DNA of 64,000 nucleotides, taken from the NCBI GenBank assembly GCA_013289175.1, contig JABDAN010000001.1, positions 62,001 through 126,000 of the forward strand. Reading direction: 5' to 3'. The notes beneath the pieces are model-generated. The model did no database searches. It was not told where the DNA came from and saw only the letters and a program-made list of their open reading frames with translations. The stretch comes from Bacteroidota bacterium (GTDB taxonomy: Bacteria; Bacteroidota; Bacteroidia; Chitinophagales; Chitinophagaceae). This document shows, in pieces, positions 44,739 through 50,978 of the stretch. The translations under genes and the position numbers were made by a program. Each line of letters begins with the position of its first letter. The first letter of the stretch is position 1.

Positions 44739-44758
44739 TTTATACTTTTTAGTATAAA
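44739..44758. promoter_or_regulatory. Candidate Rrf2-type operator TTTATACT-TTTT-AGTATAAA upstream of sufB
   Basis: Perfect 8 bp inverted repeat with 4 nt spacer overlapping the expected -33 region of the suf promoter. Confidence 0.6.
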
Positions 44759-44766
44759 TGGTTTCG

Positions 44767-44774
44767 TAAATTTG
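44767..44774 (+). promoter_or_regulatory. -7 promoter box TAAATTTG of the suf operon
   Basis: Exact TAnnTTTG; 4 nt from the sufB ATG. Confidence 0.55.
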
Positions 44775-44778
44775 CAAT

Positions 44779-46260
44779 ATGAAGACAGAACTTATCCTGC
44801 CTAAGTCTCCTGAAGTGGAAAATGAGCTCACTACGATCGAAAAAACGGTGTTTAGTGACTACAAATATGGGTTTGTAACTGAAATAGAAGCAGACGAAGC
44901 ACCCAAGGGACTCAATGAAGACGTCATTCGTTTTATCTCTGCCCGCAAAAAGGAGCCACAGTGGATGCTGGACTGGCGGTTGAAAGCGTACCGTCAGTGG
45001 TTAACCATGAAATCACCGGATTGGGCCAACATCCACTACCCAGCCATCAACTATCAGGACATCATTTATTATTCAGCACCCAAACAAAAAATAAATCCGA
45101 AAAATCTCGATGAAATCGATCCGGAGCTCATCCGGACTTTTGAAAGGTTGGGCATATCCCTGGAAGAACAGAAAAGACTAACAGGGGTTGCGGTGGATGC
45201 CGTCATCGACAGCGTATCGATTGGTACATCCTTCAAGGGTCAGCTGGCTGAATTGGGAATCATTTTCTGTTCGATGAGTGAAGCCATCCAGGAACATCCG
45301 GAACTGATCCGTGAACACCTGGGTTCCGTCGTTCCCATCAGCGATAATTATTTCTCCGCGCTGAACGCCGCTGTTTTCAGTGACGGGTCCTTTTGTTATA
45401 TTCCCAAGGGCGTTCGCTGTCCCATGGAACTGTCCACTTATTTTAGAATCAACGCGATCAACACTGGGCAGTTCGAGAGAACCCTGATTGTTGCAGAAGC
45501 CGGCAGTTATGTCAGTTACCTGGAAGGTTGTACGGCACCCATGCGCGATGAGAATCAACTTCACGCGGCGGTCGTCGAACTGGTGGCCCTTGAAAACGCG
45601 GAGATAAAATATTCCACCGTACAAAACTGGTATCCCGGAGACAAACAAGGACGTGGCGGGGTGTATAATTTTGTAACCAAACGGGGTATTTGCAAGGGAA
45701 ATCATTCAAAGATTTCCTGGACACAGGTAGAAACCGGATCGGCGATTACTTGGAAATATCCGAGTGTTATTTTAAAAGGAGACTATTCCACGGGCGAATT
45801 TTATTCAGTGGCCGTCACCAATAATTATCAACAGGCTGATACGGGCACCAAGATGATGCACCTGGGAAAAAACACCCGCAGTCGCATCGTATCCAAAGGC
45901 ATTTCGGCCGGATTTAGCAACAACAGTTATCGGGGACTGGTGCATGTAAGTAAAAATGCTTCTCATGCGAGAAATTTCTCCCAGTGCGATTCTCTGTTGC
46001 TGGGGGACAAATGCGGAGCACATACTTTCCCGTACATCGAAGTGAGGAACAATACAGCTGTCGTGGAACATGAAGCGACTACTTCCAAAATCGGAGAAGA
46101 CCAGATTTTTTATTGCAATCAACGGGGAATCGATACGGAAACGGCCGTGGCCCTGATCATCAATGGTTTTGCCAAAGAAGTGATGAATCAGTTGCCGATG
46201 GAATTTGCGGTGGAAGCCCAAAAGTTGCTGGCCATTAGCCTGGAAGGAAGCGTGGGATAA
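44779..46260 (+). CDS. sufB: Fe-S cluster assembly protein SufB
   Basis: [88 protein letters not shown]. Confidence 0.97.
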
Positions 46261-46331: not shown

Positions 46332-47093
46332 ATGTTGACGATTCAGAATTTGCATGCAGGTATTGAAGGAAAGAAAATATTGAATGGAATAAACCTGGAA
46401 ATCAAGGCCGGGGAAGTGCACGCCATTATGGGCCCCAATGGGTCCGGCAAGAGCACACTGGCTTCTGTCCTGGCAGGTCGGAAAGATTATGAAGTATTGG
46501 AAGGATCGGTTGAATTTCTAGGTAAAGATCTCTTGGAACTTTCCCCAGAACACCGCGCGGCGCTGGGATTGTTTCTGGCATTTCAGTACCCGATTGAAAT
46601 TCCCGGATTGAATACCATAAATTTTATTAAAACCGCGGTCAATGAGATACGCAAAAGCCGCGGAGAATCTCCCCTGGATGCAGTGACCTTCTTAAAAAGA
46701 ATGAAAGAGAAGATGGCGCTCGTCAATATTGAGCAAACCCTGCTCAGCCGATCTTTAAACGAAGGATTTTCCGGAGGTGAAAAAAAACGCAATGAAGTAT
46801 TCCAGATGGCCATGCTGGAACCAAGACTGGCCATCCTGGATGAGACGGATTCGGGCCTTGACATCGACGCCATCCGCATCGTATCCAACGGAGTTAACAA
46901 ACTCCGCAACAAAGACAATGCGGTTCTGGTGGTCACCCATTACCAGCGGCTTCTGGACTATATCGTGCCGGATTATGTACACGTATTGTACAATGGCCGG
47001 ATTGTAAAGTCCGGAACCAAAGAGCTGGCCTTCGAATTGGAAGAAAGAGGATATGATTTTATTAAAAATGAAAATACCGTAGAAACCGTCTAG
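46332..47093 (+). CDS. sufC: Fe-S cluster assembly ATPase SufC
   Basis: IMGPNGSGKSTLASVLAG; FSGGEKKRNEVFQMAMLEPRLAILDETDSGLDIDA. Confidence 0.98.
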   Translation: MLTIQNLHAGIEGKKILNGINLEIKAGEVHAIMGPNGSGKSTLASVLAGRKDYEVLEGSVEFLGKDLLELSPEHRAALGLFLAFQYPIEIPGLNTINFIKTAVNEIRKSRGESPLDAVTFLKRMKEKMALVNIEQTLLSRSLNEGFSGGEKKRNEVFQMAMLEPRLAILDETDSGLDIDAIRIVSNGVNKLRNKDNAVLVVTHYQRLLDYIVPDYVHVLYNGRIVKSGTKELAFELEERGYDFIKNENTVETV

Positions 47094-47116: not shown

Positions 47117-48427
47117 ATGAATACGATCGCATATTTTAAGGAAAGATTTGATCAGTTTCAACCGGGTGAAGATCAGGGTGGACTCGATAAATTGCGCGGA
47201 CAGGCATTTCAAACGTTCTCGCAGATGGGTATTCCCGGTTCAAAACACGAGGAATGGAAATATACCCGCATTGCCGGACTGTTTAACAAAGAGTTTCAAT
47301 TACCGGCCGATCCCCTCACTGGGATCGTTTCTCCCGATGATTTAAACCGGCTTCGATTGCCGGGGCATGAAGCAACCAATGAGTTGGTATTTGTAAATGG
47401 TTTTTATTCATTTTCACTTTCCAAGATCCGTTCAACCAATCTACAGGTGTTGGCCTTGGAAGAGGCGGCGGATGGAGAATTTCGGGGGATCGTGAATCAG
47501 TGGCTCGGGGACAGCAGTCATTATCAGAAAGATGGTCTCAATGCACTGAATACGGCATTTGTGCACGGAGCAGTTTTCATCCATGCCGGGAAAGCAGAAC
47601 ACATCGAACATCCCTTATATATCTATCATATTACAGATGCTCGTTCTGTAAATATCCTTTCCCAACCCCGGAGTCTGATGTATTTGAGTGAGCAAGCGCA
47701 CGCGCAAGTGGTTGAAAACTATGCGACCCTGGGATCCAATGAAAGTTTCACCAACCAGATCATGGAGATTATAGTGGAACAGGAAGCCAGGCTTGAATAC
47801 TATAAAGTTCAAAACGACGGCTCCAATACCAACCAGGTAAGTACCACCCATATCCGCCAGATAGGTAAAAGTTTCATCCAGGCGGTGACCATTTCACTGG
47901 ACGGCGGTTTGATTCGCAATAACCTAAATGTGATTCTCGATGCTAAAAACTGTGAAGCACATTTATATGGTCTTTATTTTCAAACAGGCCACAGTCACAT
48001 CGACAACCACACCATAGTTGACAACGTCAAACCAAACTGTTTGAGTAATGAGCTTTATAAGGGCATTCTCAATCATCAGTCAACAGGTGTTTTCAATGGG
48101 AAAATATTTGTTCGTCAGCCTGCTCAGAAAACCAACGCATACCAAAGCAACAAGAATATATTGTTATCTGATACCTGCAGTGTCAATACAAAACCACAAC
48201 TCGAAATATTTGCCGATGACGTAAAATGTACCCATGGTTGTACCGTGGGCAGATTGAACGAAGAGGGTCTGTTTTATTTGCAATCCCGTGGGATTTCTGA
48301 AAAAACAGCCAGGAATTTATTGCTCAGTGCTTATGCCTCTGATATTCTGGATCAAATAAAACTCCTGTCTCTTCGTGGTTGGGTAGAAAAACTGATCAAT
48401 GAACGGTTGGAAAAAGAATTATCATGA
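47117..48427 (+). CDS. sufD: Fe-S cluster assembly protein SufD
   Basis: SKHEEWKYTRIAGL; C-terminal FADDVKCTHGCTVGRLNEEGLFYLQSRGISEKTARNLLLSAYASDIL. Confidence 0.96.
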   Translation: MNTIAYFKERFDQFQPGEDQGGLDKLRGQAFQTFSQMGIPGSKHEEWKYTRIAGLFNKEFQLPADPLTGIVSPDDLNRLRLPGHEATNELVFVNGFYSFSLSKIRSTNLQVLALEEAADGEFRGIVNQWLGDSSHYQKDGLNALNTAFVHGAVFIHAGKAEHIEHPLYIYHITDARSVNILSQPRSLMYLSEQAHAQVVENYATLGSNESFTNQIMEIIVEQEARLEYYKVQNDGSNTNQVSTTHIRQIGKSFIQAVTISLDGGLIRNNLNVILDAKNCEAHLYGLYFQTGHSHIDNHTIVDNVKPNCLSNELYKGILNHQSTGVFNGKIFVRQPAQKTNAYQSNKNILLSDTCSVNTKPQLEIFADDVKCTHGCTVGRLNEEGLFYLQSRGISEKTARNLLLSAYASDILDQIKLLSLRGWVEKLINERLEKELS

Positions 48428-49671
48428 ATGCAGCGCTGACCATACCAAGAACATTAGACATCACGGCTATCCGGCAGGAATTTCCCATCCTCAATCGGGA
48501 GGTGAAAGGCAGACCACTGATATACCTGGACAATGCGGCTACAACCCAAAAACCCCAACAGGTGATCGATGCCCTCGTGAGTTATTATTCAAATTATAAT
48601 GCGAACATTCACCGGGGTATTCATACCCTGGCCGAGGAGGCGACCGCTTCTTTTGAACAAACCAGGGATATCGTACAGGCATTTATTGGCGCCCCTTCCC
48701 GGGAAGAAATCATTTTTACGAAAGGCACTACGGAAAGCATCAATCTGGTGGCTTATTGCTGGGGACGAAATAATATTTCATCCGGTGATGAAATCATCAT
48801 CAGCAATATGGAGCATCACTCCAATTTTGTTCCCTGGCAGCTCCTCTGTCAGGAGAAAAACGCCGTGCTCAAAATAATACCGATCGATGACAACGGAGAA
48901 CTCGTGATGGAGGAATATGAAAAAATGCTCACTACCCGAACAAAACTGGTTTCCATAGTGCATGTTTCCAATGCCCTGGGAACCGTTAACCCGGTTAGAA
49001 AAATAATCTCCCTGGCCCATGCTGTTGGAGCAGTTGTAGTGGTCGACGGGGCACAATCGGCCGTACATCTGGATATTGATGTCCAGGAAATGGATTGCGA
49101 CTTCTTTGCATTTTCAGCTCATAAAATATATGGTCCAACCGGCGTGGGTGTTTTATATGGCAAAAAGGCGCTCCTGGAAGCCATGCCGCCCTTTCAGAGT
49201 GGGGGCGAAATGATCAAAGACGTGTCCATTGAGAAAACCAGTTTTAATGACTTACCCTATAAGTTTGAAGCCGGTACACCCAATATTGCCGATGTGATTG
49301 CTTTTCGTTCAGCCATTCGATTTGTGCTGGAATGTGGCAAGGAAAAGATTCGCAGACATGAAGAAGAGCTTCTTGATTATGCGCATCAAGAACTGGAAAA
49401 AATTCCAGGATTGAAAATTATCGGCAAAGCAAAGGAAAAAGTGAGTGTAGTATCTTTTATCATAGAAGGTGCCCATCCACAGGATATCGGAATCTTATTG
49501 GATAACCGGGGTATTGCGGTGAGAACGGGTCATCATTGTGCACAGCCCCTCATGGATAGGTTTTGTATTCCGGGTACAGCCAGGGTTTCGTTGGCCGTCT
49601 ATAATACGAAATATGAAATTGATGAATTGGTAAAGGGGTTGCATAAAGTGGTGAAAATCTTATCAAAATAA
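48424..49671 (+). CDS. sufS: Cysteine desulfurase SufS
   Basis: YLDNAATTQKPQQVIDAL; VDGAQSAVHLDIDVQEMDCDFFAFSAHKIYGPTGVGVLYGK; VRTGHHCAQPLMDRF. Confidence 0.97.
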   Translation: MNAALTIPRTLDITAIRQEFPILNREVKGRPLIYLDNAATTQKPQQVIDALVSYYSNYNANIHRGIHTLAEEATASFEQTRDIVQAFIGAPSREEIIFTKGTTESINLVAYCWGRNNISSGDEIIISNMEHHSNFVPWQLLCQEKNAVLKIIPIDDNGELVMEEYEKMLTTRTKLVSIVHVSNALGTVNPVRKIISLAHAVGAVVVVDGAQSAVHLDIDVQEMDCDFFAFSAHKIYGPTGVGVLYGKKALLEAMPPFQSGGEMIKDVSIEKTSFNDLPYKFEAGTPNIADVIAFRSAIRFVLECGKEKIRRHEEELLDYAHQELEKIPGLKIIGKAKEKVSVVSFIIEGAHPQDIGILLDNRGIAVRTGHHCAQPLMDRFCIPGTARVSLAVYNTKYEIDELVKGLHKVVKILSK

Positions 49672-50120
49672 TGAATGAAGCAGGGAGCATTTTGGAAACG
49701 GAAAAGGAAATTGTAGAAGAATTTGCATTATTTGACTCCTGGGATGACAAATACGAGTACATCATCGACATGGGTAAAAAGTTGGATCCCCTGGATCCAG
49801 TCTTTAAAACGGATGAAAACAAGGTTAGGGGTTGCCAATCGTCGGTATGGCTGGCGGCAGACTTTCAAAACGGCAAATTGTATTACAAGGCCGATAGCGA
49901 TGCCCTCATCGTGAAAGGGTTGATCAGCATGTTGATTCGGGTATTGTCGGGAAGAACCCCGGTCGAGATCCTGGAAGCGAAACTGGATTTTATCCGGGAA
50001 ATAGGGATGACCACCCATCTTGCCCAGACCCGTTCGAACGGACTATTGAGCATGGTAAAACAGATGAAGAACTATGCACTGGCCTATAAGATTAAAGATC
50101 CACTTGCCTCAAAAAACTAG
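49671..50120 (+). CDS. sufE: SufE family cysteine desulfuration protein
   Basis: KYEYIIDMGKKLDPLDPVFKTDENKVRGCQSSVWL. Confidence 0.95.
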   Translation: MNEAGSILETEKEIVEEFALFDSWDDKYEYIIDMGKKLDPLDPVFKTDENKVRGCQSSVWLAADFQNGKLYYKADSDALIVKGLISMLIRVLSGRTPVEILEAKLDFIREIGMTTHLAQTRSNGLLSMVKQMKNYALAYKIKDPLASKN

Positions 50121-50123
50121 GAA

Positions 50124-50429
50124 ATGGAGGAATTAAAAGATAAGGTAATAGAAAAACTACAAACGATTTTTGATCCGGAAATACCGGTGAGTATTTATGA
50201 ACTGGGGCTTATTTATGAAATAAATATTCTACCGATTAACAATGTCCAGATCGTGATGACTTTAACGGCGCCGGGTTGTCCGGCTGCCCAATCGCTTCCG
50301 GTAGAAGTGGATCAGAAATTAAGAGAGATTGAAGGCGTTAACGACGTGCATGTCGCGGTTACCTGGACACCGGCCTGGGATAAAAGCCGGATGTCGGAAG
50401 TAGCACAATTGGAATTGGGTTGGTTATAA
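50124..50429 (+). CDS. DUF59/MIP18 family Fe-S assembly protein (SufT-like)
   Basis: IFDPEIPVSIYELGLIYEINI...MTLTAPGCPAAQSLPVEV. Confidence 0.92.
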   Translation: MEELKDKVIEKLQTIFDPEIPVSIYELGLIYEINILPINNVQIVMTLTAPGCPAAQSLPVEVDQKLREIEGVNDVHVAVTWTPAWDKSRMSEVAQLELGWL

Positions 50430-50504: not shown

Positions 50505-50978
50505 ATGAAAATTACTGCACAAGAAGAATTCGGGTTAAGGGTTCTCATCCGGATCGCTGGATGCGAAACCGAAGATGGCATGAGTATTCCCCAGCTGAGC
50601 AAAGCCGAAGGATTGAGCAGTCATTATGTGGCTAAACTAACCAGGACCCTTCGCATGGCCGGATTCATTAACAGTACGCCGGGTTATAAGGGTGGTTATG
50701 TTTTGGCCAAACCTTCCCGGGAAATTAAAATCAAATATGTGCTCCAGGCTCTTGGAGGTGTATTGTATGATAAGGACTTCTGCGGTCAACACGCCGGATC
50801 CGTAAAACTTTGTACAAACTCGGTGGATTGTTCGGCCAGATCTCTTTGGCAGATGATTCAATTTACGGTTGATCAGCTGCTGGATAAAATCACCCTTTAT
50901 GATATGGCCAATTCTAAGAAAAACGACTCAGCTCTGTTTCTCCGCCAGATCCTGAACGAAGTGCCAAAACTGGTTTAA
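50505..50978 (+). CDS. Rrf2 family transcriptional regulator
   Basis: KITAQEEFGLRVLIRIAG; SIPQLSKAEGLSSHYVAKLTRTLRMAGFINSTPGYKGGYVLAKPS; Cys residues DFCGQHAGSVKLCTNSVDC. Confidence 0.93.
   Translation: MKITAQEEFGLRVLIRIAGCETEDGMSIPQLSKAEGLSSHYVAKLTRTLRMAGFINSTPGYKGGYVLAKPSREIKIKYVLQALGGVLYDKDFCGQHAGSVKLCTNSVDCSARSLWQMIQFTVDQLLDKITLYDMANSKKNDSALFLRQILNEVPKLV

Follow-up and report, generated by a model that had tools for sequence, protein, structure and literature searches.

The 64,000-nucleotide stretch of Bacteroidota DNA analysed here (the window) carries a palindrome over the promoter of a suf operon whose last gene encodes an Rrf2 protein, and the question raised by this locus is whether the palindrome is the operator through which that protein controls its own operon. 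A first-pass annotation, made from the letters of the window, had proposed such an arrangement as an IscR-like feedback loop. The perfect 8+4+8 palindrome that it described, TTTATACT-TTTT-AGTATAAA, is present at positions 44739-44758 (full sequence TTTATACTTTTTAGTATAAA), and its placement in the -33 region also held, as the palindrome ends 8 bp before the -7 promoter element TAAATTTG (44767-44774, + strand), a Bacteroidota box of the form TAnnTTTG. The sequence has no other exact copy in the genome from which the window comes (3.2 Mb, 80% complete), which can be assigned to Chitinophagaceae on the basis of its named relatives. As a palindrome, the window copy is unremarkable, and palindromy by itself is within reach of chance: the window has three perfect 8-4-8 palindromes, and palindromes with 8-bp arms and spacers of 3-8 number 11 in the window versus 3-10 in shuffled sequences. 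The significance of the site therefore derives from its conservation across relatives and not from its symmetry.

The operon and its promoter

The operon encodes, all on the + strand, SufB (44779..46260, TIGR01980), SufC (46332..47093, TIGR01978), SufD (47117..48427, TIGR01981), SufS (48424..49671, TIGR01979), SufE (49671..50120, PF02657), a SufT-like protein (50124..50429; SUF-associated, FeS_assembly_P, PF01883; 138.1 bits with TIGR02945, just below the cut-off of 143.4), and the Rrf2 protein (50505..50978), a predicted Fe-S-sensing autorepressor. The intergenic distances calculated from these coordinates are 71, 23, -4, -1, 3, and 75 bp. No terminator-like site was seen in the 75 bp between sufT and rrf2, and the ORF downstream of rrf2 is convergent. 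The regulator is thus the last gene of a sufBCDSET-rrf2 operon, as the first-pass annotation had it, an order unlike that of Escherichia coli, where iscR is first in isc. In several relatives, a gene encoding a bacilliredoxin-like protein with a CGC motif (Disulph_isomer, PF06491) lies between sufT and rrf2 (e.g., L043:6894-7487 and L302:7190-7723); no such gene is present at this place in the window. In one genome only (G007), the region directly 5' of the suf operator (L036:1-900) contains a SufT-like ORF and also encodes another, distant Rrf2 (23% identity).

The start codon of sufB (ATG at 44779) follows the -7 box by 4 nt, and a distance of 3-6 nt was found in 32 of the ~70 promoters that were measurable for spacing. 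With the ATG so near the box, the sufB mRNA is probably leaderless. A TAnnTTTG element is located within 30 nt downstream of the palindrome in 79 of 95 orthologous sites (chance expectation ~1.5%), and the spacing between the two is clustered, being mostly 6 or 8 bp, or 14 bp, with 8 bp the commonest. The centre of the operator is ~22 bp upstream of the centre of the -7 box. Spacings of this size place the operator over the -33 region, an argument for RNA polymerase occlusion as the mode of action.

Conservation and anatomy of the site

The first-pass annotation had staked its reading on recurrence of the palindrome in orthologous suf promoters, and the palindrome does recur where rrf2 is present. 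The consensus TTTATACTTTTTWGTATAAA was found with three or fewer mismatches in 96 of 100 non-redundant suf promoters of operons with an Rrf2 ortholog (24 exact, 48 with one mismatch, 19 with two, and 5 with three); the other four have 4, 5, 5, and 7 mismatches, and one of the two promoters with 5 has a site with one extra T. In none of the 28 suf operons without rrf2 was a match at this threshold found within ~1 kb upstream, the best having 5 mismatches. As several of these operons start with a SufA-like gene, the scan covered 300 bp and then ~1 kb upstream as well as the whole loci, with the same outcome. The association between site and regulator (Fisher p ~3e-24) is descriptive only, since the sequences share common ancestry. 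In the first 60 related genomes, every readable sufB promoter of a suf operon with a 3' rrf2 had the motif or a variant, and operons without rrf2 lacked it. The genome G036 likewise has the Rrf2 ortholog at the expected place.

Across the order, the Rrf2 ortholog was identified in 46 of 349 genomes, with a wide gap between the weakest ortholog (E-value 1e-46) and the next match (2e-19). Among the matches listed from a scan of the order for the site, all exact matches are in genomes with rrf2, and the few one-mismatch matches in genomes lacking rrf2 each have a broken dyad. In the 80 rrf2 loci from named genomes, rrf2 is located 3' of suf wherever neighbouring genes are present (L234 ends before its neighbours); the genera include Terrimonas, Niastella, Niabella, Sediminibacterium, Flavisolibacter, Pedobacter, and Mucilaginibacter. 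One distant operon with rrf2 (L200, genome G152) has no such site and another (L192) has only a poor one. Among the relatives compared, we found no close suf operon that has lost rrf2 alone; rrf2, suf, and the operator are inherited together, and co-inheritance is therefore not fully separated from function. For most members of genera g34 and g31 that lack rrf2, no SufB match was found at E <= 1e-100, making them unusable as loss controls. These include near-complete genomes of the same family (G131, G161, G219, G227, G258, G305, and others), in which the sequences suggest that SUF has seemingly been replaced or is missing.

Comparison of 97 sites refines the outline of the predicted Rrf2 site over the suf -33 region (44739..44758, without strand). 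Positions 1, 5-7, 11, and 14-16 are invariant, and the core of the site is TATAC-N6-GTA. In the left half-site, TTTATAC (44739..44745, + strand), the invariant positions are 1, 5, 6, and 7, and in the right half-site, GTATAAA (44752..44758, + strand), they are positions 14-16 (GTA). Between them lies an asymmetric T-tract, TTTTTA (44746..44751, + strand; consensus TTTTTW), that is found in most relatives as well as in related operators of another class. The eighth base pair of the palindrome, T8-A13 in the window, is usually broken in relatives: position 8 is T in 96 of 97 sites, its partner at position 13 is T, A, or C, and 65 of the 97 have T8-T13. Because position 8 is kept while its partner varies, the conserved dyad is, as judged from these sites, 7-6-7 rather than 8-4-8, that is, TTTATAC-TTTTTW-GTATAAA with an asymmetric T-tract in its centre, and the 8-4-8 form belongs to the window copy TTTATAC-TTTTTA-GTATAAA. 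Degeneracy within the half-sites is mirrored (position 4 is A/G/C and position 17 is T/C/G; position 2 is T/C and position 19 is A/G), and in some dyads both halves have changed (e.g., TTTGTAC..GTACAAA and TCTATAC..GTATAGA), which points to recognition by a symmetric dimer. Some promoters contain tandem double sites (e.g., L191 and L194).

The regulator and the rival readings

The protein encoded by rrf2 scores above the cut-offs of the Rrf2 superfamily profiles PF02082 (88.6 bits, cut-off 30) and TIGR00738 (86.4 bits, cut-off 73.3) and below those of all equivalog families that were compared, namely IscR (TIGR02010, 62.0 versus 207.55; PRK10857, 41.0 versus 275), CymR (NF047409, 75.9 versus 195), the Xanthomonas-type suf regulator (TIGR02944, suf_reg_Xantho, 63.2 versus 110.65), NsrR, and RirA. 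Its highest NCBIfam equivalog score, far under the cut-off, is that for CymR. The AlphaFold model (mean pLDDT 81) has the winged-helix fold of solved Rrf2 proteins, with a Cys loop of low confidence (pLDDT 56-76 by block), and Foldseek returned CymR, T. potens IscR, and RsrR as top matches, with NsrR matched too. In an alignment with T. potens IscR, the window protein has A43 and K44 at the recognition positions and P59 in the wing, and thus lacks the E43/Q44 and R59 of IscR; K62 is nearly invariant among its orthologs. The Cys residues had been noted in the first-pass annotation as compatible with an Fe-S or redox sensor. Of the four, C93, C103, and C109 are invariant in 50 orthologs and have the spacing C93-X9-C103-X5-C109, and C20 varies.

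This spacing recalls RisR of Myxococcus xanthus, an Rrf2 protein of the IS6 group encoded in the operon risR-sufBCDSUT, which has Cys residues C92, C102, and C108 and a UV-visible spectrum suggesting a [4Fe-4S] cluster, and whose holo form acts as a suf repressor from a dyad that overlies the core promoter (PMC9973013). In both systems an Rrf2 protein is encoded within the suf operon, the residue numbers of RisR (PMC9973013) give the same C-X9-C-X5-C pattern, and a dyad covers the core suf promoter, with protein binding being a prediction for the window. The two differ in that risR is the first gene and its product also controls isc, while the regulator described here is encoded last and has seemingly one target. 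The RisR site TTGAC-N7-GTCC is not found either, the window having TTTATAC-N6-GTATAAA and the relatives from another class TCTTGAC with a T-rich spacer. With E. coli IscR, the protein shares the Rrf2 fold and, as predicted here, autoregulation of an Fe-S assembly operon, but IscR is encoded first in isc, binds [2Fe-2S], and in its apo form activates suf (PMC9973013), and it differs from the window protein at recognition positions 43 and 44 and at wing position 59. Feedback by a 3'-encoded Rrf2, as first proposed, is therefore supported by the distribution of the site (96/100 versus 0/28), whereas its IscR-like character is not: given the Cys spacing and the missed IscR family cut-offs, the loop is better described as RisR-like. 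SufR of cyanobacteria and mycobacteria is likewise a cluster-binding suf repressor but belongs to another protein family. In L319 (G311), a locus from the same family without rrf2, a SufR-like gene is located directly before sufB (TIGR02702, 103 bits, below the cut-off of 178.8). This locus suggests that one type of regulator has been exchanged for another within a single genus, and SufR may thus be an alternative solution within the same bacterial family.

If the Rrf2 protein binds the site, it might still sense thiols, cysteine, or a redox-active compound, as do CymR, HypR, and SifR, rather than an Fe-S cluster. CymR of Bacillus and Staphylococcus is both the top structural match and the highest-scoring equivalog, and the bacilliredoxin-like gene between sufT and rrf2 of several relatives would suit a thiol sensor. 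We nevertheless consider this reading unlikely, as CymR is a regulator of cysteine metabolism whose family score is far from being reached, and as the window protein has three invariant Cys residues spaced as in RisR and is encoded inside a cluster-making operon. Binding of the palindrome by a transcription factor other than this Rrf2 is improbable. A second dyad, TTTAGA-N5-TCTAAA, is present in some suf promoters, and other regulators therefore probably act on suf in the phylum; against their acting at the palindrome, the site strictly accompanies this Rrf2 ortholog, the type of site and the Rrf2 recognition helix shift together between classes, and the only other Rrf2 found in the genome has a different Cys pattern and is flanked by dapB- and groEL-like ORFs. 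That the Rrf2 protein activates from the palindrome is very improbable. Rrf2 proteins are capable of both roles, as the effect of apo-IscR on E. coli suf illustrates (PMC9973013), but the operator overlaps the -33 element with its centre at the classic place for occlusion, and the variable spacing to the -7 box (6, 8, and 14 bp) would hardly be tolerated by an activator. A chance palindrome or RNA hairpin with no regulatory role, for which the other 8-4-8 palindromes of the window and their near-shuffle numbers might speak, is effectively ruled out by conservation of a near-invariant site across genera and families amid unrelated flanks, and the palindrome is upstream of the predicted transcription start and therefore outside the mRNA.

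In other families of the order, the second dyad is frequent at the sufB promoter where the suf operon has no rrf2 (L048, L049, L052, L054, and L056; also L171, L175, L189, and L286). Some operons with rrf2 have both dyads, with TTTAGA-N5-TCTAAA located just after the -7 box and one half often degenerate. Its half-site presumably resembles DtxR-type sites.

Proposed mechanism, regulon, and meaning

The reading that we prefer makes the palindrome the operator of the Rrf2 protein whose gene closes the same SUF operon, and of this there is little doubt. That the bound protein represses is highly likely, and that it senses an Fe-S cluster is very probable. The three claims largely stand or fall together through the analogy with RisR, and taken jointly they are likely. 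An Rrf2 homodimer carrying a cluster on C93/C103/C109 would bind TTTATAC and GTATAAA across the T-tract and cover the -33 region, leaving RNA polymerase unable to start at sufB. When clusters are scarce, as at low iron, under oxidative stress, or at high demand, the protein would lose its cluster and release the operator, and the operon including rrf2 would be transcribed until new clusters reloaded Rrf2 and shut it off.

As judged from the matches, suf is probably the only target, because in a scan of the window's own genus every match with one or no mismatch is at sufB of a genome with rrf2. A wider regulon was rejected, as matches with 2-3 mismatches in the window's genome are at or below the control read backwards (38 forward versus 50 control). 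An exact copy away from suf in G122 was rejected as a second target, as it falls within a peptidase-like gene, in the part that encodes the signal peptide. The repeat TTTACACTTTTTAGTGTAAA, with eight copies in G081, was also considered as marking a sister regulon and set aside: most copies adjoin a repeated transposase-like gene, and these repeats (L204, L205, L207-L210) are therefore probably mobile-element termini with a chance resemblance to the operator.

In a phylum-wide sample, the Rrf2 ortholog was identified in 55 of 396 genomes, mostly outside the class of the window. In all 19 loci read from this sample, rrf2 is located 3' of suf, and 18 have AATCTTGAC-(T-rich spacer)-CAGATT or a sequence near it before a TAnnTTTG-like box; the remaining locus, L307, starts inside sufB. 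The related operator in this other class is TCTTGAC-N6-GTACAGA, with the same operon order. The recognition helix there is mostly EANVAKILR or EHNVAKILR with wing residue R59, versus SHYVAKLTR and P59 in the group of the window, so half-site and recognition helix and wing appear to change together, a correlation between two groups. We tentatively suggest that the phylum may hold an old, distinct branch of suf autoregulators that are encoded last and bind a dyad with a central T-tract at the -33 element; in this branch, a switch of half-site between TCTTGAC and TTTATAC would have accompanied the change in the regulator's recognition helix and wing (R59 versus P59 plus K62), and a regulator in last place would report completed transcription of the operon.

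Autorepression of an Fe-S assembly operon by an Rrf2 protein is already known as a kind of regulation, from IscR and RisR. In the openly accessible literature that was searched, no paper was found that deals with an Rrf2 protein regulating suf in Bacteroidota or with the site of such a regulator, nor was a description found of the operator sequence, the last-gene position, or the apparent single-target regulon in this phylum; subscription papers and regulon databases may contain an earlier prediction. What emerges is a precisely defined operator with a named regulator and what seems to be a one-operon regulon, and each of these can be tested in cultured genera, for example Pedobacter, Niastella, or Terrimonas. 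The paired shift of operator and regulator between two classes provides a natural case for the evolution of Rrf2 specificity. If the proposed mechanism is true, these cells would stop making the SUF machinery when clusters are plentiful.
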